Of a stretch of DNA of 64,000 bases, positions 10,976-29,284 are shown in pieces. A model generated the notes under the pieces. It was given only the letters and a program-made list of their open reading frames with translations. It was not told the origin of the DNA and ran no database searches. Each line of letters starts with the position of its first letter. Positions within the stretch are counted from its first letter, which is position 1. The position numbers and the translations under genes were made by a program. Source of the DNA: Candidatus Segetimicrobium genomatis (lineage in GTDB: Bacteria > Sysuimicrobiota > Sysuimicrobiia > Sysuimicrobiales > Segetimicrobiaceae); NCBI GenBank assembly GCA_005882275.1, contig VBAK01000114.1, positions 1 through 64,000 on the forward strand, given 5' to 3'.

Positions 10976-13417
10976 CTATCCGGCGGCGGCCTCATCCGCG
11001 GCGGCGATGGGAGCGATCGCGGATACGCGGTCGCCCTCGTCGAGCCGCTGCAGTCTCACCCCCTGGGCCTCGCGCCCCTGCGTGGAGATGTCCTTGACCA
11101 GGAGGCGGCTCACGATCCCCTGGGCCGTGATGACCAGCACCTCGTCTTCGTCATCCACCGCCCGGATCGCGGCCACCTTGCCGGTCCGGGCCGTCAGCCG
11201 GATGTTGCGCACGCCCGAGCCCCCACGGCGCTGCAGGCGGTACTCGCTGAGCAGTGTGCGCTTGCCGAGCCCGAGCTCGCTGGCGACCAGCAGGTACTTG
11301 CCCTCGCTGCTGATCGCCATCCCGACCAGCGCGTCGTCGCGGCGCAGGGTGATGCCGATGACGCCGCGCGCCGCCCGGCCCATCTCGCGCACGTTGGCTT
11401 CCTTGAACCGGATCGCCTGCCCGTTCCGGGTCGCCAGGAGCACTTCTTCCTTCCCGTCGGTCAGGCGCACCGCAACCAGCTCGTCGTCCTTGTCCAGGGT
11501 GATCGCCGCGATGCCCGCGCGCTTGGCGTTGATGAACTCCATCAGACCGGTCTTCTTCACGTTGCCGTGCTTGGTCGCGAAGAAGAGATCCCCGGTGTCC
11601 TCGAAGGACCGGATCGGGATGATGGCGTTGACCCGCTCGCCCTGGGCGATGCTGAACAGGTTGACGAGGCTCGTGCCCTTGGCCGTCCGGCCGGCCTCCG
11701 GCACCTCGTAGGCCTTCACCCGGTAGACCTTGCCCCGGTTGCTGAAGAAGAGGACGAAGGCGTGGTTGGTGGTGACGGTGGCGACCTCCACGTAGTCCTC
11801 TTCCTTGGTCCCCATGCCCATGACGCCGCGCCCGCCGCGGTTCTGCCGGCGGTAGGTCTCCAGCGGCAGCCGCTTGACGTAGCCGTTGTGGGTCAGCGTG
11901 ATCACCACCTCGGCGTCCGGGATCAGGTCCTCCACGTCCAGCTCGGCGTCCTTGCCGGTGATCCGCGTCCGCCGCGGGTCGCCGAACCGCTCCTTGACGC
12001 CGACCAGCTCGGCCTTGATGATCTCGAACACCTTGTGCTCGTCGCGCAGAACGTCCTCGTACTGGGCGATCGCCTTGATCAGCTCTTTGTACTCCTCGTC
12101 CAGCTTCTCGCGCTCGAGCTGGGTCAACCGCTGCAGCCGCATCTCTAAGATCGCGTCGGCCTGCAGCTCGCTGAGCTTGAACTTGCTCATCAGGCCGGCC
12201 CGGGCCGCCGGGACGTCCTTGGCCTTGCGGATCAGCGCAATGACATCGTCCAGGGACTTGAGCGCGACCTTGAGCCCCTCCAGGATATGCGCGCGCGCCT
12301 TCGCCTTCCGCAGCTCGTACTCCGTCCGCCGGGTGACGACCACCTTGCGGTGGGCGAGATAGTGCGCGAGGATCTGCTTGAGGGGCAGCACCCGCGGGAC
12401 GCCGTCGACCAGGGCGAGCATGATCGCTCCGAACGTGGTCTGCATCTGGGTATGCTTGAACAGCTGGTTCTGCACGATCTGGGGATTGACGTCGCGCCGC
12501 AGCTCGATCACGACGCGCATGCCCTGTCGGTCGCTCTCGTCGCGGAGGTCGGAGACGCCGGCGAGCTTCTTCTCCCGCACCAGCTGGGCGATCCGCTCGA
12601 CCATGGCGGCCTTGTTCACCATGTAGGGGAGCTCGGTGACGATAATCGCCATTCGGCCTCCCCGCAGCTCCTCGATCGCGGTTTCGGCGCGGACGATCAT
12701 GCTGCCCCGCCCCTCCAGGTAGGCGGCGCGGATCCCGTCCCGGCCGAGGATCCGGCCGCCGGTGGGAAAGTCCGGTCCTTTGACGATCTTGAGCAGCGCC
12801 TCCGGCTCGAGGTTCGGATCGTCGATGAGGGCGACGAGGGCGTCCACCAGCTCGCCGAGATTGTGGGGCGGGATGTTGGTGGCCATCCCGACCGCGATGC
12901 CCGAGGCGCCGTTCATCAAGAGGTTGGGCACCCGGCTGGGCAGCACGACCGGCTCCTGCATCGACTGGTCGAAGTTGGGGACGAAGGGCACGGTCTCTTT
13001 GTCGATGTCGGCGAGCAGCTCCATCGCCATCCGGGAGAGGCGCGCCTCCGTGTAGCGCATCGCCCCCGGCGGATCGCCGTCCACGCTGCCGAAGTTGCCC
13101 TGCCCGTCGATCAGCGGGTAGCGGAAGCTGAAGTCCTGCGCCATCCGCACGAGGGCTTCGTAGACCGGCACGTCCCCGTGCGGGTGGTACCGGCCCATCA
13201 CGTCCCCGACGACGCGCGCGCACTTCCTGTACGGCCGGTCGGGCGCCAGGCCCATCTCGGACGCGCCGTAGAGGATGCGGCGCTGCACCGGCTTGAGCCC
13301 GTCACGGACGTCCGGGAGCGCCCGGCTGACGATGACGGACATCGCGTAGTCCAGATACGATGTCCGCATCTCCTTTTCGATTGGTTGCTGGATGATGTTC
13401 TCTTCGGTCGCCGCCAT
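10976..13417 (-). CDS. gyrA: DNA gyrase subunit A
   Basis: An 813-residue type IIA topoisomerase subunit that breaks and rejoins DNA during supercoiling at and ahead of forks. The catalytic Tyr122 lies in AMRYTEARL. The quinolone region reads [20 protein letters not shown], with Val at the position of E. coli Ser83 and Glu at Asp87. The C-terminal six-bladed domain carries NRGGRG and later QRRGGSG, so one of these is the GyrA box needed for DNA wrapping. The ATG at 13417 has GAGGAG upstream; it is 50 bases after gyrB and co-transcribed with it. Confidence 0.97.
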
Positions 13418-13467: not shown

Positions 13468-15477
<2,010 letters not shown>

Positions 15478-15884: not shown

Positions 15885-16214
15885 TCACCCTACCTTAGGC
15901 TCCACTCCACCGCTCTCCCGGCCTTCGCCCGCCGGGCGCAGCACGACGCGGATCTCGTCGATCACCCGCTCGCCCACGCGTTGGTTGAGCGCCTCGACCA
16001 ACGCCGAGCGCCGCAGGCCGAGCTCGTGGGAGAGCGCCGGCAGATCGGTCATCACGATCAAGGCACTCCCCCGGATGCCCGCCGCGCGGGCGTGCCGGGC
16101 CCGCGCTTCCCCGACGACCTCCGGCCACGCGTCGAGCACCCCGGCCTGCCGCGCCCGCCGGGGGCCGACGAGCGCTCCCAGCGCCTCCCCCAGCAGGTCC
16201 TTAAGCCGAAACAC
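15885..16214 (-). CDS. dciA: DciA-type (DUF721) helicase-loading protein
   Basis: A 109-residue DUF721 protein. Members named DciA help load the replicative helicase DnaB in bacteria lacking DnaC or DnaI loaders. The conserved core is visible as WPEVVGEARARHARA, then IRGSALIVMTDLPALSHELGLRRSALVEALNQRVGERVIDEIRVVL. It overlaps the end of recF by 14 bases, so the two are co-translated, an arrangement also seen in actinobacteria. No dnaC, dnaI or dnaD is seen in the window. Confidence 0.87.
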   Translation of the reverse strand: MFRLKDLLGEALGALVGPRRARQAGVLDAWPEVVGEARARHARAAGIRGSALIVMTDLPALSHELGLRRSALVEALNQRVGERVIDEIRVVLRPAGEGRESGGVEPKVG

Positions 16215-17286
16215 CGGATTCCTCGACGATGCGCCCGGTGCGCACGCGCAGCACCCGCATCGGCGCCGCCCCGAGCGCGGGCCGCTCGGTATGGGTCAGC
16301 AGCACCTGGGGCCCGGCGATCTCGCGCACAAGCAGCGCCTGACGGGCAGCATCCAGGTGCGCCAGCACGTCATCGAAGAGGACGACGGGCCACTCCCCCC
16401 GCTCTTCCTTAAGCAAGTCCACCTCCGCCAGCCGCAGGCTGAGCGCGGCGGTGTGGTGCTGACCTCGTGACCCATAGGCGCGCAGATCGACCCCGTTGAC
16501 CGTCAGCCGCAGATCGTCACGGTGCGGCCCGACGAGGCTCGCGCCGCGCCGGAGCTCATCCTGCCGGCGCGCCGCCAGCGCGCGCGCCAGCGCCGCCCGG
16601 TCCCCGCCTTCGCCCACGGCGCAGACGTACGCGATCTGCAATCGCTCTTCCCCGCCCGCCAGCCGGGCATGCCGCGCGGCCGCCCGCGCGCCGAGCCGCG
16701 CGACAAATTCGCGACGGCGCTCGATCACCACGGCCCCGAGGTCCACCAGCTGCTCATCCCACGGCGCCAGCGCGGCCCCATCCGCCGCCGCGCGGAGCAG
16801 CCGATTGCGCTGTCTGACCACCCGGGTGTAGCGCGTCAGCGCAAAGAAGTACGACGGGCTGACCTGGCTCAGCGCGGCATCCATCACCCGCCGCCGGTAT
16901 TCCGGAGCGCCCCGAATCACTTCGTCGTCGAGCGGTCCCGCCAGCACCACCATGAGCCGGCCGAGCAATTGGCCGCGATCCACCACGACGCCGTTGACCT
17001 TGAGCCGCCGCTCACCCGTGGCGCGGTCGAAGGCCACCTCCAGCACCTGCTGGCGCTCCCCCTGGACGCCGGCCCGAATGTGGGCCCGGTCCTGGCCAAA
17101 CCGGATCAGTTCGACGTCGCGCGTCACCCGCGGGCTCCGTCCCAGCGCGGCGGTGTAGACGGCCTCCAACAGGTTGCTCTTCCCTTGGGCGTTCGACCCG
17201 ATGAGCAGCAATACGCCCTGGTCGAGCGCGAGATCCACCGCCTCGTAGTTTCGAAAGTTCCGAAGACGAAGCTCAGCCAACCACAA
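16201..17286 (-). CDS. recF: DNA replication and repair protein RecF
   Basis: About 361 residues, an SMC-like ATPase that loads RecA onto gapped DNA. It opens with WLAELRLRNFRNYEAVDL, with Walker A in IGSNAQGKSNLLEA, signature near LSLRLAEVDLL, and Walker B in VVLFDDVLAHLD. No ATG fits; a TTG at 17286 (or a second at 17280) gives the family N-terminus and lies inside the 3' end of the S4 gene. A longer frame reaching 17355 would simply be out-of-frame S4 sequence. Confidence 0.93.
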   Translation of the reverse strand: MWLAELRLRNFRNYEAVDLALDQGVLLLIGSNAQGKSNLLEAVYTAALGRSPRVTRDVELIRFGQDRAHIRAGVQGERQQVLEVAFDRATGERRLKVNGVVVDRGQLLGRLMVVLAGPLDDEVIRGAPEYRRRVMDAALSQVSPSYFFALTRYTRVVRQRNRLLRAAADGAALAPWDEQLVDLGAVVIERRREFVARLGARAAARHARLAGGEERLQIAYVCAVGEGGDRAALARALAARRQDELRRGASLVGPHRDDLRLTVNGVDLRAYGSRGQHHTAALSLRLAEVDLLKEERGEWPVVLFDDVLAHLDAARQALLVREIAGPQVLLTHTERPALGAAPMRVLRVRTGRIVEESGVSA

Positions 17287-17482
17287 TCCGGTACTCCCGG
17301 TTGCCCACCGCCACCCGGTCGCCGGCGCCGAGGCGCCGGCCCCGCCGGCGTTCAACCACCCCGTTGACCATCACCCGCCCCGTCTGCACCAGCACCTTCG
17401 CCTGCCCCCCGGTCGTGACCGCGCCCGCCCACTTGAGCGCCGCTCCCAGCGTGATCTCCCGGGTCGCGATCGCGACCGGAAT
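17273..17482 (-). CDS. yaaA: YaaA-type S4-domain RNA-binding protein with unusual start
   Basis: A 69-residue S4-domain protein between dnaN and recF, the same position as B. subtilis yaaA. The conserved core reads EITLGAALKWAGAVTTGGQA, then VLVQTGRVMVNGVVERRRGR and LGAGDRVAV. YaaA relatives act in ribosome-related RNA binding, but the exact role is unsettled. The frame has no ATG, GTG or TTG between the in-frame stop inside dnaN and the conserved core. The ATT at 17482 would reproduce the family N-terminus; a CTG at 17449 has GGGAG six bases upstream but removes the first conserved residues. The gene overlaps recF by 14 bases. Confidence 0.85.
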   Translation of the reverse strand: MPVAIATREITLGAALKWAGAVTTGGQAKVLVQTGRVMVNGVVERRRGRRLGAGDRVAVGNREYRIVVG

Positions 17483-18819: not shown

Positions 18820-20208
18820 CTATTGGTCCACCACGGTCGGTCGCTCTATCCGGAAGTTGTCCACAAGGTTCTTGATCCCGGCGGCCAGGTGAGCGTCTTG
18901 AAGCAATGCCGTCTTGACGCGGTCGCAGGCATGCATGACCGTGGTGTGATCGCGACCGCCGAACTCTTCGCCGATCCTGGGAAGCGAAGCGTCGGTGAGT
19001 TCGCGGGAGAGGTACATGGCGACTTGTCGGGGGAAGGCCACGCCTTTGGTGCGCCGCTCAGATTTCATCTCGTCGACCCGGATCCCAAAGAACTCAGCAA
19101 CCGCGCGCTGGATGGCCGGGATCGTGACCGGGCGAACGCGGGTTTGGGGCAGCACCTCCCGGAGCACCTGGGTGGCCAGCTCGATGGACAGCGGGGTGCT
19201 CGTCATCTGCGCGTGGGCGCGGAGATGGCTGAGCGCGCCTTCCAGCTCTCGGATGTTCGAGGAGATGTGCTGCGCAATGTACTGGGCGGTCTCGTCGGGC
19301 AGGGCGACGCCGTCCAGTTCGGCTTTTTTGCGCAAGATGGCGATGCGGGTTTCGTAGTCGGGCGGTTGGATGTCCGCAATCAGCCCCCACTCGAACCGGG
19401 AGCGCAGCCGGTCCTCCAGTGTCGGGATCTCTCTCGGCGGACGGTCGCTGCTGATGATCAACTGCCGGTTGGATTCGTGGAGCGCGTTGAAGGTGTGGAA
19501 GAACTCTTCCTGGGTGCGCTCCTTGCCGGCGAGAAACTGGATGTCGTCGATGAGCAGCACGTCGGCGGTCCGGTACTTGTTGCGAAACTGGACGGTCTTG
19601 TCGTCCCGGATCGAGTTGATGAGGTCGTTGGTAAAATGTTCCGATGAGACGTACATGACCCGGGCCATCTGTTTGAAGGTGAGCACGTGGTAGCCGATGG
19701 CCTGGAGGAGATGGGTCTTGCCCAGGCCGACGCCGCCGTAAATGAACAGGGGGTTGTAGGCTTTCGCCGGGGCTTCGGCGACCGCCAGCGCGGCCGCGTG
19801 AGCGAAGCGGTTGCCGTTGCCGATGACGAATGTATCGAACGTATACTTGCCGTTGATGAGGGTCTCGGACGGAAGCGGGCGGGTGACCGCCGGATCGCGC
19901 GGGGCGGGAGATGCGGGCGGTGCGGTCGGTGCGGGAGCCGACGGCTCCCCGTCGGCGATGACAAACTGGACATCCACCCCGTGGGTGAGGACCTCTTCGA
20001 GCGTGTCGAGGATGAGTCTCCGGTAGCGGCCTTCGACCCATTCCTTCGCGAACAGGCTGGGGACCGAGAACACGAAGATCCCCTGGTCGAGCGCCATCGG
20101 TCGCATCGCTTTCAGAAATGTCTCGAAGCTCGGCTTGCTGAGTTGCCGCTCGATCCTGGGCAGAGCTTCCCGCCAGACCTGGCTGGCGGCGAGGTTCTGA
20201 GACTCCAT
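18820..20208 (-). CDS. dnaA: Chromosomal replication initiator protein DnaA
   Basis: A 462-residue AAA+ initiator. Domain I spans about 1-85, then a Pro/Ala linker (85-125). Domain III carries YTFDTFVIGNGNRFAHAAA, Walker A GGVGLGKTH, Walker B VLLIDDIQFLAGKERTQEEFF and sensor II near residues 340-350. Domain IV ends with the DnaA-box-binding helix FGGRDHTTVMHACDRV. The ATG at 20208 follows GGGAGG and lies 36 bases after the ATPase-winged-helix gene, so the two are probably one operon, unusual for dnaA. Confidence 0.97.
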   Translation of the reverse strand: MESQNLAASQVWREALPRIERQLSKPSFETFLKAMRPMALDQGIFVFSVPSLFAKEWVEGRYRRLILDTLEEVLTHGVDVQFVIADGEPSAPAPTAPPASPAPRDPAVTRPLPSETLINGKYTFDTFVIGNGNRFAHAAALAVAEAPAKAYNPLFIYGGVGLGKTHLLQAIGYHVLTFKQMARVMYVSSEHFTNDLINSIRDDKTVQFRNKYRTADVLLIDDIQFLAGKERTQEEFFHTFNALHESNRQLIISSDRPPREIPTLEDRLRSRFEWGLIADIQPPDYETRIAILRKKAELDGVALPDETAQYIAQHISSNIRELEGALSHLRAHAQMTSTPLSIELATQVLREVLPQTRVRPVTIPAIQRAVAEFFGIRVDEMKSERRTKGVAFPRQVAMYLSRELTDASLPRIGEEFGGRDHTTVMHACDRVKTALLQDAHLAAGIKNLVDNFRIERPTVVDQ

Positions 20209-20244
20209 GCGCGGCCTCCCGTTTTGGCCCGCGGTCGCCGGGCG

Positions 20245-21045
20245 CTAGGGCTCAAACACCGTGTCGAGGTACGCGATGCCTTCTTCCGTCAGGGTGCGTT
20301 TGCCGGGCCCTCGGGTCGCCACCAGTTGCAGCGTCTCGAGGGCGTAGAGCTCGCGGTAGGCGGTGCTGGGGCTCATGCCGAGTTCCTTGGCAATCGATGT
20401 GGGCCCGGCGGACCCCAGCTCGTTGATGAGCAGGAGGACCTTGCGCTGCCGGGGGGTGATGCGCACCGGCGCCGGGGCCGCCGCCGGAGCGGACGGGGCC
20501 GCCGGCCGGGGCGCGGGCCGAGCGCTCGGCTGCGGGGGACCCACCTGCAGGGTGACCACCGTGCCGCGTTCCAGGTTGTCCTCGATCGAGATCGCGCCGC
20601 CGAGGAAGGCCAGCTGTTCGCGCGCGACCGGGAGACCGGACCCCACGCCCTTGATGAACTGGCGCATGTCGCGCGTCGCGGTCGTGAACCCGGGGAGGAA
20701 GGCGCGCTCCTTGTCCTTGATGCCTGGGCCGTGGTCGGAGATGCGGATGGTGTTGCCGTTGTCCATGATGGTGACGATGGCGTCCTGGAAGAACGCGTGG
20801 ATCAGGTTCTCCATGATTTCCCTGATGACGACGAACGGGATCCGTCCCCCGCGCTCGCGGGCAAAGGCGTGGGTTCGTGAGGCGAGCTCTCCAACAAGTT
20901 CGTTGAAATCCTCCGCGGAGAGGGAGACGATTTGCGGCGGCGACAGCAGCGAATCGTACACGGCGACGCGCACTTCGGGTGGCTGTCCTGCATCTTCCGG
21001 CGTCTCCTTGGCCTTCGACGTGAGGCGCAGGAAGAAGTCCTGCAT
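20245..21045 (-). CDS. HATPase_c domain fused to winged helix, upstream of dnaA
   Basis: A 266-residue cytoplasmic protein. Residues about 70-168 form a histidine-kinase-type ATPase: N-box REIMENLIHA (Glu76, Asn80), G1 DHGPGI (104-109), G2 GVGSGL (133-138) and the final GT (161-162). There is no phospho-accepting His domain and no membrane segment, so it is more like a stand-alone GHKL switch of the RsbW or SpoIIAB kind. A Pro/Ala linker (170-200) leads to a MarR-like winged helix (203-266; PTSIAKELGMSPSTAYRELY). It starts with ATG after CGGAGAG and lies between the DnaA-box cluster and dnaA. A role sensing nucleotide state and acting at dnaA or oriC is inference only. Confidence 0.8.
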   Translation of the reverse strand: MQDFFLRLTSKAKETPEDAGQPPEVRVAVYDSLLSPPQIVSLSAEDFNELVGELASRTHAFARERGGRIPFVVIREIMENLIHAFFQDAIVTIMDNGNTIRISDHGPGIKDKERAFLPGFTTATRDMRQFIKGVGSGLPVAREQLAFLGGAISIEDNLERGTVVTLQVGPPQPSARPAPRPAAPSAPAAAPAPVRITPRQRKVLLLINELGSAGPTSIAKELGMSPSTAYRELYALETLQLVATRGPGKRTLTEEGIAYLDTVFEP

Positions 21046-21626
21046 GGGATTCTCTCCGGTATGTGCAGCCCGAGTATTGGCCCGCGCGGAGCGCCCTTCC
21101 TGCCCGCCCGGCGTCGGCCGCAGAGTTTTTTCGCCTGTCGCTGACGTGCCGGCGGATGGTCACCGCTGTGGAAAGATGATCATCCGCAAACTCAGAATTT
21201 CCTGGTGACGATCCTGTGGTGGGGGGCGAGCCGGAGCGCATAGATATGGAGATTATTTGGGCTGGGCCCGGTTATCCACAGGTGTGGAAAAGATTGTTGA
21301 TAACTTAGAGAATCTCCTCCAACCATCCGGAAAATTTCTCCCCTGGCGGGTTCTTCCGCCGAGGTCGGGCTCGTCGCTCTCGCGGCGCTCAGACGAGATC
21401 TTGATAACTGGGATGGTTGTCACCAGGTTATCCACAGGGGTCCAATGGCGGGGTGTGGGGAGCGGTCCCTCCCTAGGGGGTTGGGTTAAGCGGGACGGTG
21501 TGGCCCCGTAGAGCCCGGCGCGTTGAACGGCGCGGCGGTCCTATGCTATAGTGAGGGGAACTGCCGGGCCCGGTCCTCTCCGGCGGGGGGTAGCCCGACC
21601 GGGTGTGACAGGAGGGGGACGGCCAG
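21046..21626. other. Putative chromosomal origin (oriC), upstream DnaA-box cluster
   Basis: A 581-base non-coding stretch. Perfect DnaA boxes TTATCCACA occur at 21272-21280 and 21428-21436. One-mismatch boxes are TGTGGAAAA (21283-21291) and TGTTGATAA (21295-21303); TGTGGAAAG at 21167-21175 is weaker. The dense group 21272-21303 adjoins an A+T-rich patch (about 21240-21260 and 21290-21312) that could be the unwinding element. Genes diverge from this point on both sides, as expected of an origin. The window to the left also carries boxes in the dnaA-dnaN gap. Confidence 0.85.
21523..21552 (+). promoter_or_regulatory. Promoter of the rpmH-rnpA-yidC operon
   Basis: TTGAAC (21523-21528) and TATAGT (21547-21552) are spaced by 18 bases, about 75 bases upstream of rpmH, pointing away from the origin. 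Confidence 0.6.
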
Positions 21627-21764
21627 GTGAAGCGGACTTTCCAGCCAAGCAGACGCCATAGAAGCAAAGTACACGGGTTCCGCGTCAGAATGCGCACCCC
21701 GGGCGGGAGAAACGTGCTCAGGCGGCGGCGGTCGAGGGGACGGCACCGCCTCGCGCCTTCTTAG
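21627..21764 (+). CDS. rpmH: Large ribosomal subunit protein bL34
   Basis: A 45-residue, very basic protein of the 50S subunit starting [20 protein letters not shown] and continuing [19 protein letters not shown], the invariant L34 pattern. It starts with GTG at 21627 behind AGGAGGGGG. It is the first gene of the right-hand operon, directly followed by rnpA as in nearly all bacteria, and lies next to the DnaA-box cluster. Confidence 0.96.
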
Positions 21765-23976: not shown

Positions 23977-24678
23977 GTGGCCGTCGGCCGGATCCTCCAC
24001 TCCGGCGGCGCATCCCTCGGAGTCGAGCTCTCCTCCCGCCAGGGCGAGCTGCTCGACCGGTACGTTGGGCTGGTGCTGGCGTGGAGCCGCCGGCTCAACC
24101 TCTCCGGCGTGAGCACGGAGGAAGAGGCGGCGCGCGTGCTCGTCCTGGATGCTCTGGCGTGTCTTGCGCCCCTCCCGCATCGCGGCACCCTGGTGGACCT
24201 TGGCAGCGGCGCCGGAACGCCGGGCGTGCCGGTCGCCGTGGCGCGCCCGGACCTCCATGTGACCCTGGTCGACGCGTCGCGGAAGAAGGCGGGGTTCCTC
24301 GCGGTGGTCGTTCGCGAGCTGGGCCTGGAGAATGCGGAGGTCCTTCACGCGCGGGCGGAAGAGGTGGGACGCGCGCCGGCGCATCGCGAGCGGCACGACG
24401 CCGTCACCGCGCGCGCGCTGGCGTCGCTGTCCGTGCTGGCCGAGTACGCGCTCCCCCTGCTCCGGATCGGCGGCGTCGCGGTGTTCCCGAAGGCCCGCCG
24501 CGCGGCGGCGGAAGTTGCCCGGGCCGCCGGCGCGGTGGCGCTCCTCGGCGGCGCCTCCGGGGTGGAGGTGCGTCCCCTGCCCTCCGGGGGCGATCTCATG
24601 ATTGTCCGGAAGGCTGCGCCGACCCCCGACCGCTACCCGAGGCGTCCGGGCGTGCCCGCCCGGCGCCCGTTGCCGTAG
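23977..24678 (+). CDS. rsmG: 16S rRNA (guanine527-N7)-methyltransferase RsmG
   Basis: A 233-residue SAM-dependent methyltransferase modifying G527 of 16S rRNA. The SAM site is in VDLGSGAGTPGVPVAVARP, with LVDASRKKAGFLA following and TARALASLSVLAEYALPLL later. It starts with GTG 4 bases after jag. mnmE and mnmG, which often sit nearby, are absent here. The C-terminal 20 residues are Arg/Pro-rich. It is convergent with the ABC permease 24 bases away. Confidence 0.94.
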   Translation: MAVGRILHSGGASLGVELSSRQGELLDRYVGLVLAWSRRLNLSGVSTEEEAARVLVLDALACLAPLPHRGTLVDLGSGAGTPGVPVAVARPDLHVTLVDASRKKAGFLAVVVRELGLENAEVLHARAEEVGRAPAHRERHDAVTARALASLSVLAEYALPLLRIGGVAVFPKARRAAAEVARAAGAVALLGGASGVEVRPLPSGGDLMIVRKAAPTPDRYPRRPGVPARRPLP

Positions 24679-24702
24679 GCGCCGCAGAGGCGCTCATCGC
24701 GA

Positions 24703-25593
24703 TCACCGCACGCGCGGGTCGAGCCGGTCACGCACCGCGTCGCCGAGGAGGTTCGCGCCGAGCACCGTGACCATGATCGCGAGGCCCGGGAACGTCGCCA
24801 GCCACCACCCCGTCGCCAGGTAGGCGCGCCCGTCGGCGAGCATGTTGCCCCAGCTGGGCGTCGGCGGCTGAACGCCGAGGCCGAGGAACGACAGCGCCGC
24901 CTCGTACACGATCATCAGGCCGATCTCCAGCGTGCCGACGACGACGATCGAGGGGAGCACCTCGGGCAGCACGTGCCGCAGCATCACGCGGACGTCCGTG
25001 CCGCCGAGGGCGCGGGCCGCTTCAACGAATTCTCGCGACCGGCCGGCGAGGGTCTGCGCGAACGCGACCCGTGCGTACCTCGGCCATCGGGTGAGCCCCA
25101 GGACCAGCACCGTGTGCTCCAGGCCGGGGCCGAGGGCGGCCACGACCGCGATGGCGATCAGCAGGAACGGGATGGACAGGACGAGATCCACAACCCGCAT
25201 CACCACCGCGCCCACCCAGCCGCGATAATACCCGGCCGTGAGCCCCAGGAACAGGCCGAGCGCCCCCGAGCACGCCACGGCGAGGCCCGCCACCGCCAGC
25301 GAGGCGCGGGCGCCGTAGATCAACCGGCTGAGGGCATCGCGGCCCAGTCCGTCTGTCCCGAGCCAGAACACCTCGCCGTGCGGTCCGCGCGTGCCCGGCG
25401 ACATCAGGCGATCCGCGAGGTGCTGGGCCAGCGGGTTTCGGGGCGCCACGGTCGGCGCCCCCAGCGCGGCGAGCGCGACGGCGATGAGGACCCCGATCCC
25501 GGCATTGCCGGCTGGCGCCAGCCCTCGGCGCCGGCGCCGCGCCGGGTCTTCGCGAGGGTCGAGCGCGCTACTCGCCGTGGATGCGGCAGGCAC
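24703..25593 (-). CDS. Peptide-type ABC transporter permease, DppC-like
   Basis: A 296-residue inner-membrane permease of the oligopeptide/nickel family. The N-terminal membrane segment is followed by the GTDGLGRDALSRLIYGAR signature, and the ABC-coupling EAA loop reads EFVEAARALGGTDVRVMLRHVLPEV. The late LSFLGLGVQPPTPSWGNML is the DppC hallmark. The GTG start is 16 bases downstream of the partner permease. No ATPase gene lies within the window, so the transporter must borrow one or have it elsewhere. Confidence 0.9.
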   Translation of the reverse strand: MPAASTASSALDPREDPARRRRRGLAPAGNAGIGVLIAVALAALGAPTVAPRNPLAQHLADRLMSPGTRGPHGEVFWLGTDGLGRDALSRLIYGARASLAVAGLAVACSGALGLFLGLTAGYYRGWVGAVVMRVVDLVLSIPFLLIAIAVVAALGPGLEHTVLVLGLTRWPRYARVAFAQTLAGRSREFVEAARALGGTDVRVMLRHVLPEVLPSIVVVGTLEIGLMIVYEAALSFLGLGVQPPTPSWGNMLADGRAYLATGWWLATFPGLAIMVTVLGANLLGDAVRDRLDPRVR

Positions 25594-25608
25594 CGTGAGG
25601 TGGCCCGG

Positions 25609-26538
25609 CTATGATGGCGCCCCGGCGAGCGCGATCCGCGGGTCCAACAACCCATAGCACACGTCGGTGGCCAGATTGGTGAGGACGAAGACCGCGGTGC
25701 CCACGATCACGACGGCCTGCACCACCGTGTAGTCGCGGGCCTGGATCGCCTCGACCGCCAGCCTCCCAATGCCCGGCCATGCGAAAATGGTCTCCGTGAT
25801 CACGGCTCCGCCGAGCAGGTTGGCCACGTCGAGGGCCGCGATCGTGAGGATGGGGATCGCCGCATTGCGCAGCACGTGGGCGACGATCACGCGCCGGGGC
25901 GACACGCCCTTGGCATGCGCGGTGCGCACGTAGTCACGACGCGCCTCCTCCAGCACGGCCGACCGGCTCATCCGCGCGATCGTGGCGAGGGACAGCCAGG
26001 CGAGCGTGATGGACGGGAGGATTAAGGTCTGGGGAGTGCCCGACCCAGAGGACGGCAGCAGGTGCCACCGAACGCTGACGATCAGGATGAGGAGCAGCCC
26101 GGTCCAAAACGATGGCATCGCCTGGCCGATGAGGATGAGGGGCAGGGCGAGGCGGTCAAACGCGCCGCCTCGGCGCGTGCCCGCAGCGACGCCGAGGGGG
26201 AGGCCGCCGGCGAGGGCCAGCCCGAACGCCGCCGCGGTGAGCTCGATGGTATAGGGAAGACGCTGGAGCACCAGCGGCAGCGCCGGGGCGTCCTGCACGT
26301 AGGAGGTCCCGAGGTCTCCACGCGCGAGCCCGGCAAGAAAACGGACGTACTGCACATGGAGGGGGAGGTCGAGCCCCAGCGTGTGCCGCATCTGGGCGAT
26401 GACGTCTGCCGGTGTGCCCTGCGGGACCATGAGGGCCACCGGATCGCCCGAGAGACGGACGATGACGAAGACGATCGTGGAGACTCCCCAGAGGACGACC
26501 CCCGCCTGCAGCAACCGCCCGGCCATGAACCGTCCCAT
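25609..26538 (-). CDS. Peptide-type ABC transporter permease, DppB-like
   Basis: A 309-residue permease starting MGRFMAGRLLQAGVVLWGVS, with the typical DppB pattern: first membrane helix, RLSGDPVALMVPQGTPADVI loop, RGDLGTSYV, and the EAA loop DYVRTAHAKGVSPRRVIVAHVLRNA, then AVITETIFAWPGIGRLAVEAI. The ATG at 26538 gives the conserved N-terminus; open frame upstream is non-coding. It follows the binding-protein gene by 41 bases. Confidence 0.9.
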   Translation of the reverse strand: MGRFMAGRLLQAGVVLWGVSTIVFVIVRLSGDPVALMVPQGTPADVIAQMRHTLGLDLPLHVQYVRFLAGLARGDLGTSYVQDAPALPLVLQRLPYTIELTAAAFGLALAGGLPLGVAAGTRRGGAFDRLALPLILIGQAMPSFWTGLLLILIVSVRWHLLPSSGSGTPQTLILPSITLAWLSLATIARMSRSAVLEEARRDYVRTAHAKGVSPRRVIVAHVLRNAAIPILTIAALDVANLLGGAVITETIFAWPGIGRLAVEAIQARDYTVVQAVVIVGTAVFVLTNLATDVCYGLLDPRIALAGAPS

Positions 26539-26579
26539 GCTGTCGCCCGGCCGTCTCTCTGCGCGCGCCGGCCGTCGGC

Positions 26580-28085
26580 CTACTGCCCGAGCGACATGTT
26601 GGCGACGAAGAGTTGCTCGTCCACCGTCGGATGCCAGCGCAGGCGCCGATCCGCCCCGTACAGCGCGACGACCTCCCACAGCGGCACAGCGGGGACATCC
26701 CGCTGGAGAATGCTCAGCGCGGTCGTATACGCGGCCGTCCGCGCCGCCACATCGAGCGTCGAGCGGGCGTCATCGACCGCCTTGTCGAAGGCGGGATCGC
26801 CGTAGCTCGACCAGATGCTCCCGGTGTGAAACAGCGGATAGATGACGCCGTCGGCGTCCAGGCACGCACACGACCACTGCCCGTAGCGCAGATCCCCCCA
26901 GTCGTGTTGGGGGGACTGGATCTTCTGCAGGTATGTCCCGAAATCATACGACTGGATCCTCACGGTCACGCCCGCCTGCTCGAGTTGTCCCTGGATCGCC
27001 TGGATGATGCGCTGGTCGTAGGTCGGCGAGGTCGTAAACACGAGCGTCAGGCCGCCGGCATGAGCGCTCTCGGCAAGCAGCTGGGTCGCCTTCGCGAGAT
27101 CGTGAGGGTAGCCCGGGATCTTCGGGTCGTAGCCAACGTGGCGGGACGTCAGGAGCTCGGTGACCGGCCGGGCATAGCCCGCGAGCAGGATCCGGATCAG
27201 CGATGGGGCGTCCACCGCGTGGGCGATGGCCGCCCGCGCGCGCGCGTCCCGCAGCGGACCCGGCCCGAGCGCGTTGAACGCCAGATAGGCGACGCGTTCG
27301 GTCGCGCCGCCGAGGAGTTGGAGCTTGGGGTCGCGTTTGATCGTCTTGACGTCATCGGAGGTGAGGCCGAGCGCGAGTTGGGCCCGCCCGGACTGCAGGT
27401 CGGCGACGCGCGTCGCCGTTTCAGGCACCGTCCGAAACGTGACCTCGTCGATCTGCGGCCGGCCTCTCCAGGAGGCCGGGACCGCCCGCAGCGTCACGTG
27501 GTCGCCGCGGAGCCAGGCGGCGAAGCGGTAGGGACCGCTCCCCATGGGATGCGCGTTGACGTACGGTTGATCATGGGCCTGCACGTACGCTTTGGAGACG
27601 ATGCTGAGGTTGACGAGCTGGGCGAGCAGCGCAGGGTACGGTCGCGACGTGATAATGGTGAGCGTGTCCGGTCCCGTCGCTTTGGCGCTGGCGATCGCGC
27701 TGAAGTTGGCGTACTGAGGACTGTTGAACCGCCGGTCGAGAATGCGCGCGAGGCTCGCCTCCACGTCGGCGGCCGCCAGTGGCGTGCCGTCATGAAACCT
27801 GACGTCGTTGCGGATGGTGAAGTGCCATTCGGTCGGGGTGACGGCCTTCCACGCCGTGGCGACAGAGGCCTCGATGGCGCTCGTTTGGGGGTTGCGGTGA
27901 AGAACGTTGTCGTAGATATTGCGGTAGACGTCATAACTGTTGGTATCGTACTGACGCCCGGGGTCGAGCGTCGCCGGATCCCCCTGCAGATCGACCGTCA
28001 ACGCGGTCGCCCCGGTGGTCACGGTTGGTCCGGCGGCGCCCACCGTAAGCGCGAGCGCCAGCGCCGGCAGGATCCGCATTGACAT
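26580..28085 (-). CDS. Family 5 extracellular solute-binding protein
   Basis: A 501-residue secreted binding protein with a signal peptide (MSMRILPALALALTVGAAGP). Mature sequence shows the SBP_bac_5 pattern: GDPATLDPGRQYDTNSYDVYRNIYDN, VRFHDGTPLAAADVEASLARI, MGSGPYRFAAW. There is no lipobox Cys, so membrane anchoring is not obvious. It probably feeds the two downstream permeases with a peptide, sugar or metal chelate; the ligand cannot be predicted. Confidence 0.88.
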   Translation of the reverse strand: MSMRILPALALALTVGAAGPTVTTGATALTVDLQGDPATLDPGRQYDTNSYDVYRNIYDNVLHRNPQTSAIEASVATAWKAVTPTEWHFTIRNDVRFHDGTPLAAADVEASLARILDRRFNSPQYANFSAIASAKATGPDTLTIITSRPYPALLAQLVNLSIVSKAYVQAHDQPYVNAHPMGSGPYRFAAWLRGDHVTLRAVPASWRGRPQIDEVTFRTVPETATRVADLQSGRAQLALGLTSDDVKTIKRDPKLQLLGGATERVAYLAFNALGPGPLRDARARAAIAHAVDAPSLIRILLAGYARPVTELLTSRHVGYDPKIPGYPHDLAKATQLLAESAHAGGLTLVFTTSPTYDQRIIQAIQGQLEQAGVTVRIQSYDFGTYLQKIQSPQHDWGDLRYGQWSCACLDADGVIYPLFHTGSIWSSYGDPAFDKAVDDARSTLDVAARTAAYTTALSILQRDVPAVPLWEVVALYGADRRLRWHPTVDEQLFVANMSLGQ

Positions 28086-28351
28086 AGAAACCAGCCCCCT
28101 GTCGAACAGAGTCGCGCTGCCAGGACGTTTCGTGAAGGCGCCCGCGACCCCTCCCCCCCTCACATCGGGGCATCCAGTCATAGAGAGATATTTCCATATA
28201 TAGATATACACGAGAGCGGCCCGCCGACGGCCCCCAAGCGCTGCCTCGTGGCGTCGAGATTCCCTCAGGTTGGGGTTCGCTCGACACCCCCCCTCCCCGG
28301 GGGGTTTGCCAGAGGGTGCATGGAGGATTTCAAAGTCGGAGGAGAGAACTG
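28086..28351. other. Divergent intergenic region between binding protein and parA
   Basis: No gene is seen. A sharply A+T-rich island at 28178-28212 (with TATATA and GATATA) probably carries divergent promoters, though no clear -35/-10 pair stands out. A C-run/G-run hairpin followed by TTT at about 28287-28306 could act as an attenuator or terminator ahead of parA. Confidence 0.45.
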
Positions 28352-29284
28352 GTGCTCGATTGCGACCGACCGGCCCCTCCATCGTCGCAGCCGCAGAAGC
28401 CTTATACAGAAATGGGGTCGCAGCCGACGGGGAACACGTTCGCGATCGTCAACCAGAAGGGCGGAGTGGGGAAGACCACCACTGCCGTCAACCTGTCCGC
28501 CGCACTTGCCTCCCTCGGGCGCGTCATCCTGCTTGTGGACCTCGACCCTCAGGGCAACTCGACGAGCGGGGTCGGCATCTCCAAGGCCGGCCTGCGCATG
28601 TCGGTCTATGACGTGCTGATCGGCGGGGATCCCCTCGACCACGTGATCCAGCGGACGGCGACGGCCGGCCTGGACCTCGTTCCATCGGACGTGCGATTGG
28701 CGGGAGCCGAAGTGGAGCTCACGGCCACGATCGCCCGGGAGACCCGCTTGAAGAACGCTCTGAGGACCGCCAGGAACCACTACGACGTCGTGATCATCGA
28801 CTGCCCGCCTTCCCTCGGCCTGCTGACGATCAACGCGCTCACGGCCGCGGACGCGTGCCTCATCCCGCTGCAGTGCGAATACTACGCGCTCGAGGGGCTG
28901 TCGTCGCTCGTGACGACGATCGACCTCGTCAAGCGCCACCTGAATGCCGGCCTCGACGTTTCGGGAGTCCTCCTGACGATGGCGGATCCCCGGACGAAGC
29001 TTTCCGACCAGGTGGCGGCCGAGGTCAGGAACCACTTTGGGAGCAAGGTCTTCGAGACGGTTGTCCCAAGGAGCATCCGGCTGGCCGAGGCCCCGAGTTA
29101 CGGCCAGCCGATCATCGCGTACGCGCCCGGATCGCGGGGCGCGGCAGCGTACCTCACCCTGGCAGGCGAGTTCGCCGACCGCATCGGCCTCCCCCATGTC
29201 TCCAGTCGGGGAGGCGCCGTGCAGGTGCCGGCGGCCGTCGCCGGGATCGACCCCAGAGTGGGTGGAGGCGATCGATATGACTAA
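28352..29284 (+). CDS. parA: Chromosome partitioning ATPase ParA/Soj
   Basis: A 310-residue deviant-Walker ATPase that segregates origins with ParB and, in Bacillus, regulates DnaA. The fold begins FAIVNQKGGVGKTTTAVNLS (deviant Walker A with its signature Lys), followed by VDLDPQGNSTSG and IIDCPPSLGLLTINAL. The GTG at 28352 is chosen because GGAGGAGA lies just upstream; this adds about 20 residues before MGSQPTGN. An ATG at 28412 lacks a binding site. It overlaps parB by 8 bases. Confidence 0.94.
   Translation: MLDCDRPAPPSSQPQKPYTEMGSQPTGNTFAIVNQKGGVGKTTTAVNLSAALASLGRVILLVDLDPQGNSTSGVGISKAGLRMSVYDVLIGGDPLDHVIQRTATAGLDLVPSDVRLAGAEVELTATIARETRLKNALRTARNHYDVVIIDCPPSLGLLTINALTAADACLIPLQCEYYALEGLSSLVTTIDLVKRHLNAGLDVSGVLLTMADPRTKLSDQVAAEVRNHFGSKVFETVVPRSIRLAEAPSYGQPIIAYAPGSRGAAAYLTLAGEFADRIGLPHVSSRGGAVQVPAAVAGIDPRVGGGDRYD

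Follow-up and report, generated by a model that had tools for sequence, protein, structure and literature searches.

The window analysed here, a stretch of 64,000 nucleotides from a member of the class CSP1-3/Sysuimicrobiota (relatives by name include 'Armatimonadetes bacterium CSP1-3'; the phylum is described in PMC11604079), carries a replication operon in the order ghkl-dnaA-dnaN-recF-dciA-gyrB-gyrA, with ghkl at its head. The spacer between ghkl and the downstream dnaA is 36 bp long (20209-20244), as given in a preliminary description of this DNA, and both genes lie on the same strand, so that transcription in their shared direction reaches ghkl immediately before dnaA. The operon faces rpmH-rnpA-yidD-yidC across approximately 580 bp (21046-21626) that hold a cluster of DnaA boxes. 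The genes of the locus are as follows.

21627 to 21764, plus strand: rpmH, which opens the divergent rpmH-rnpA-yidD-yidC operon and forms the far border of the origin region
20245 to 21045, minus strand: ghkl (ATG start, 266 aa), encoding a GHKL ATPase-winged helix protein of an unnamed dnaA-linked family kept in three phyla
18820 to 20208, minus strand: dnaA (Pfam Bac_DnaA, 2.8e-76; DnaA_N; Bac_DnaA_C), the sole dnaA of the genome
17511 to 18620, minus strand: dnaN
16201 to 17355, minus strand: recF, from SMC_N/AAA_23 matches and operon position
15885 to 16214, minus strand: dciA, helicase operator (Pfam DciA, 1.1e-16)
13468 to 15378, minus strand: gyrB
10976 to 13417, minus strand: gyrA, after gyrB

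In the stretch 23977-28382, the genes that come after rsmG (gidB) encode ABC transporters and not parA/parB, which often adjoin rsmG near bacterial origins.

By all the usual signs, the ghkl area is the replication origin region. Allowing at most one mismatch, ten DnaA boxes were counted in the 64 kb against 2.15 expected, a number reached in 0/100 shuffles. Seven of the ten fell in the origin area: four in the gap between ghkl and rpmH, within 165 bp (at 21272, 21283, 21295 and 21428), and three at or near the gap between dnaA and dnaN. The minimum of the cumulative GC skew lay at 16-18 kb. The ghkl-rpmH gap contains the following features.

21272 to 21303: DnaA-box triplet, read on the minus strand as TTATCAACA-ATC-TTTTCCACA-CC-TGTGGATAA, near-invariant in the window's family (core 0.98)
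21428 to 21436, plus strand: fourth DnaA box, an exact TTATCCACA
21136 to 21176, minus strand: conserved origin element TCTTTCCACAGCGGTGACCATCCGCCGGCACGTCAGCGACA, a candidate winged-helix site or operator/promoter

The family-conserved element next to the DnaA boxes (21136-21176) is new in this analysis. Its mean column identity was 0.81-0.83, compared to an average of 0.605 (10 family members), and it follows the pattern TCTYTCCACA-n-TGACCG-n-CGGCACGTCAGCGGCA, is adjoined by a DnaA-like box and sits ~90-130 bp upstream of the ghkl start. The core, CGGCACGTCAGCG(G/A)CA, contains GGCAC(G) half-repeats spaced 11 bp, and one further copy of the exact core occurred in the 3.7-Mb genome, which is chance level (reversed-pattern control). 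We regard this element as a lead, a candidate operator or winged-helix site. The GG-N10-GC spacing within CGGCACGTCAGCGGCA is superficially like that of sigma-54 -24/-12 sequences, although the TT ahead of GC is missing. After masking of the DnaA boxes, a motif search was run on four sets of lineages; the motifs differed from set to set, and no single one emerged across lineages as a winged-helix site. The strongest Coriobacteriia motif, ATGAAA-TTTCTT, was rejected as a site because it is coding sequence (MKSFF start).

The ghkl product had been described as a GHKL ATPase with intact N, G1 and G2 boxes, devoid of a phospho-acceptor domain and fused to a DNA-binding module, and each part of this was borne out. 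HATPase_c (PF02518) matched residues 73-168 (E = 1.2e-11; 45.5 bits, Pfam cut-off 26.4) and was found in 77/77 members of the family. Identical in all 77 aligned proteins were E76, N80 and H83 (N-box), D104, G106 and G108 (G1), G119, and G133, G135 and G137 (G2). HisKA had no match in the ghkl protein (Pfam, E up to 1), nor did it occur among the 25 commonest families of the 77 members. HTH_IclR matched residues 203-244 (E = 1.1e-5; 25.6 bits, Pfam cut-off 22) and 60/77 members (E up to 0.01). Within the winged helix, R231 (predicted recognition helix), L236 and L252 were likewise identical in 77/77, and R250 (predicted wing) was kept in 74/77. No Pfam or NCBIfam model spans the entire protein, the parts of which are listed here from the N-terminus.

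21010 to 21045, minus strand: N-terminal amphipathic/aromatic motif MQDFFLRLTSKA, an AlphaFold2 (AF2) helix at residues 2-12 of low confidence; candidate docking peptide
20542 to 20976, minus strand: Bergerat-fold ATPase domain, residues ~24-168 (Pfam HATPase_c, AF2, Foldseek to histidine-kinase catalytic domains)
20458 to 20541, minus strand: Pro/Ala-rich linker, residues 169-196; its length in homologues ranges from 17 to 148 residues
20257 to 20457, minus strand: winged helix domain, residues 197-263 (Pfam, AF2, alignment)

The AF2 model of the whole protein, made with 77 homologues, had a pLDDT of 84.9. The ATPase domain runs in the order beta hairpin (24-43), alpha1 (47-64), N-box helix (71-83), G1 strand, lid and G2, with a helix (137-147), two strands and the disordered Pro/Ala-rich linker after the lid. 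Modelled alone, this domain gave a pLDDT of 85.3 and a pTM of 0.81, and its closest Foldseek matches were histidine-kinase catalytic domains (probability 1.00, TM ~0.55), the best being CpxA, HK853 and ThkA. The winged helix (198-263) was modelled with very high confidence (pLDDT 90-98), and both the HTH model over its cut-off and the predicted wHTH fold place it in the winged-helix regulator class (IclR/MarR/TrmB-like). Many homologues from gut Coriobacteriia (L093-L111) have a far longer linker between ATPase and winged helix, the proteins being 330-440 aa long.

Comparison of true N-termini (homologues including L051-L149) revealed a short amphipathic/aromatic motif common to most lineages, followed by a variable, unrelated linker. 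Its variants comprise MQDFFLRL, MSIREIIARLIEER, MSLRELLDQII, MESYFQRFIDNLE, MKDFLEKI, MKNFLQKLLEE, MKSFFDG and (A/S)xxFYPFVEN, and it is indistinct in a few lineages, e.g. UBP13. This conserved motif on a variable linker is also new in this analysis and is probably a docking peptide.

Known GHKL families share parts of this architecture. Histidine kinase catalytic domains share the Bergerat fold and the N, G1 and G2 boxes with the ghkl protein, which differs from histidine kinases in lacking HisKA/DHp and a sensor, in the beta hairpin and alpha1 ahead of the N-box and in the winged-helix fusion; identity as a two-component histidine kinase was rejected because HisKA is missing. SpoIIAB, RsbW and RsbT are likewise stand-alone GHKL kinase-type domains with an E-x3-N N-box, and the ghkl ATPase presumably resembles RsbT. 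However, the ghkl protein carries a winged helix, and TIGR01925 (SpoIIAB) gave weak matches in 44/77 members and 20.6 bits for the ghkl protein itself, far below the cut-off of 135. The anti-anti-sigma-like partner that the preliminary description proposed to look for was sought at the locus and did not turn up: no sigma factor or STAS partner was linked, the neighbours being only the replication genes dnaA-gyrA and those of the rpmH-yidC operon. Membership of SpoIIAB/RsbW was rejected on the profile score and the absence of a linked partner. With the whole model, the top Foldseek match was 3lmm, DIP2311 of Corynebacterium diphtheriae (E = 4.1e-7; ATPase and C-terminal helices covered), at TMq 0.47, rmsd 14 A and 16% identity. 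DIP2311 is presumably composed of AlbA_2, HATPase_c_4 and wHTH; HATPase_c_4 (PF13749) had no match in the ghkl protein (E up to 1), which therefore does not class as DIP2311-type.

Regulators of DnaA include SirA, YabA and Soj in Bacillus, Hda, DiaA and SeqA in E. coli and HobA in Helicobacter. In its genomic context ghkl is likewise lineage-restricted and dnaA-associated, and to our knowledge none of these proteins has a GHKL ATPase or a GHKL-wHTH architecture. A literature search, with most subscription journals outside it, found no description of the ghkl family or of such a gene beside dnaA. For mycobacteria, the usual DnaA regulators are entered as not found (PMC5720831), and regulators of unknown kinds are the more to be expected for it. 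The operon itself offers a precedent: dciA, once an uncharacterised gene of the dnaA-dnaN-recF-gyrB-gyrA operon, proved to be a replication-initiation factor (PMC5109545). It shares the operon of ghkl, but the DciA protein is unrelated and loads the helicase.

The occurrence of ghkl was surveyed in three phyla. In the Sysuimicrobiota it was present in 38/43 genomes (one partial copy counted), i.e. in 38/38 of those with dnaA; the five class genomes without it reflect assembly gaps, since dnaA is missing there too. All three UBP13 genomes and 120/297 Actinomycetota genomes (even sample) also carried it. A scan of named genomes found at least 80 loci in CSP1-3, UBP13 and Actinomycetota, although it queried two conserved peptides, which other phyla with variant motifs could escape. 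Named actinomycetotal carriers were Aquicultor, Oleimmundimicrobium and Coriobacteriia including Atopobium, Olegusella and Olsenella.

Linkage to dnaA was a refutation test set beforehand, and across the three phyla it held. The gene lay directly upstream of dnaA and co-directional with it in 185/194 loci (some genomes being included twice, from two collections), and the other nine end at a contig end; no counter-example, with ghkl apart from dnaA, occurred among the resolvable loci. Wherever flanks were present, the order was yidC-yidD-rnpA (reversed) followed by ghkl-dnaA-dnaN-recF-gyrB. In six complete chromosomes, one of 3,225,748 bp, dnaA is the first gene and ghkl the last. The gap from ghkl to the first possible dnaA start had a median of 21 bp, with some ATGA overlaps. 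Chance juxtaposition of the two genes was rejected because the linkage recurs across the loci surveyed. The placing of ghkl between dnaA and the main DnaA-box cluster, which the preliminary description had also noted, applied to the window and to other carriers, where the cluster lies upstream of ghkl, but not to one lineage (L151, L157-L166, L187, L189), where the stretch from dnaA to dnaN contains 17-19 of the boxes. In this lineage the origin is shifted relative to ghkl and the ghkl-dnaA pair stayed together. The constant feature is thus adjacency to dnaA, not position beside the box cluster.

The set of ghkl-negative genomes numbered 55 (25, five of them the fragmentary class members, plus 30) and yielded 47 usable DnaA sequences, with no trace of ghkl nearby. 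On the DnaA tree, 38 of these 47 fell in one block, and the presence of ghkl required 8 changes versus 36 in shuffles, demonstrating lineage structure. Distances between ghkl proteins correlated with the corresponding dnaA distances at r = 0.66 and with the dnaN distances at r = 0.83; dN/dS lay at 0.08-0.14 in ghkl, compared with 0.05-0.10 in dnaA. A search of plasmids and phages returned no ghkl homologue in either, and an origin from them was rejected. The gene is inherited vertically with dnaA, under purifying selection. As a large block of Actinomycetota is without it, ghkl is not universally needed. This block probably includes the class Actinomycetes, a membership that we infer. In Actinomycetes, DnaA domain I instead forms a dimer that is conserved there, while most of the residues key to it are not conserved in the other classes (PMC13270200). 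Two close DnaA relatives, L203 (G064) and L178 (G094), differ in that one is without ghkl beside dnaA; this contrast possibly represents a recent loss and could reveal a replacement.

Because the same gene occupies the same place in three phyla, it probably encodes a dedicated regulator of the timing of chromosome copying. Our preferred reading, which we hold to be rather likely from sequence and context, is that the ghkl protein binds DNA under the control of an ATP switch and serves specifically to regulate the dnaA operon, the origin or both. The winged helix would keep the protein on the rpmH-ghkl intergenic DNA, with its DnaA boxes and conserved non-box element. When the GHKL domain, which may dimerise, binds or hydrolyses ATP, the affinity for DNA or the contacts with proteins would change, and in this way the nucleotide state would be reported. 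The N-terminal amphipathic peptide would dock on a protein of the replication machinery, most probably DnaA, and any direct action on the DnaA protein would go through this peptide. In consequence the protein would govern the transcription of dnaA, the assembly of the orisome or both, a task that falls to SirA/YabA in Bacillus and to Hda/DiaA/SeqA in E. coli. A regulator of replication initiation whose DNA binding could depend on its ATP state had been suggested at the outset; with the linkage upheld this best fits the anatomy and context, as a predicted function. As counterpoints, adjacency to dnaA alone can mean co-expression with replication genes and not control of DnaA, and not every carrier has the cluster of DnaA boxes next to ghkl. 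Possible, if rather doubtful, is an undescribed class of control in which the GHKL-winged helix protein would read ATP/ADP at the origin and gate DnaA loading through its N-terminal peptide; as part of the same tentative reading, this class would be paired with DnaA in Sysuimicrobiota, UBP13 and many Actinomycetota.

Other explanations draw on the same evidence. The protein could be a local autoregulator only, repressing or activating ghkl-dnaA(-dnaN) through ATP/ADP or another ligand and leaving DnaA and the orisome untouched. It is built as a one-component regulator whose winged helix is MarR/IclR/TrmB-like, a conserved element lies upstream of its start and it opens the operon in every lineage, all of which is consistent with this; but autoregulation alone leaves the conserved N-terminal peptide unexplained, and simple repressors do not usually sense through a GHKL domain. 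We consider this explanation unlikely. Kinase activity toward a partner is possible, on the evidence of the fold. SpoIIAB, RsbW and RsbT, which phosphorylate anti-anti-sigma partners, provide the model for a GHKL domain acting as a kinase on DnaA or on some other protein of replication, brought to the origin by the winged helix. The N-box, the beta hairpin-alpha1-N-box order and the weak SpoIIAB profile matches fit such a kinase, yet these matches are far under the curated cut-off, PF13581 (HATPase_c_2) matches just 2/77 members and the STAS partner is missing nearby; we consider it quite improbable. Linkage to dnaA might also serve co-expression only, the target lying outside replication, e.g. 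in rpmH-rnpA-yidC, the operon that runs the other way, or far off in the genome. The intergenic region does also serve rpmH-rnpA; against this, ghkl stays with dnaA in the lineages examined, even where the DnaA boxes are elsewhere, and away from the origin the conserved element has a single copy, no more than chance would give. We consider a non-replication target highly improbable.

How bacteria other than E. coli and Bacillus control DnaA has long been a gap in knowledge. Found beside dnaA at all resolvable loci examined in three phyla and with its catalytic residues conserved, ghkl is a strong candidate to fill it, and it is open to immediate testing, since some carriers are in culture (relatives of Atopobium and Olsenella and, presumably, Rubrobacter). 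If the preferred reading, an ATP-switched regulator of the dnaA operon and/or the origin, is true, ghkl would add a new type of nucleotide-sensing control at the origin.
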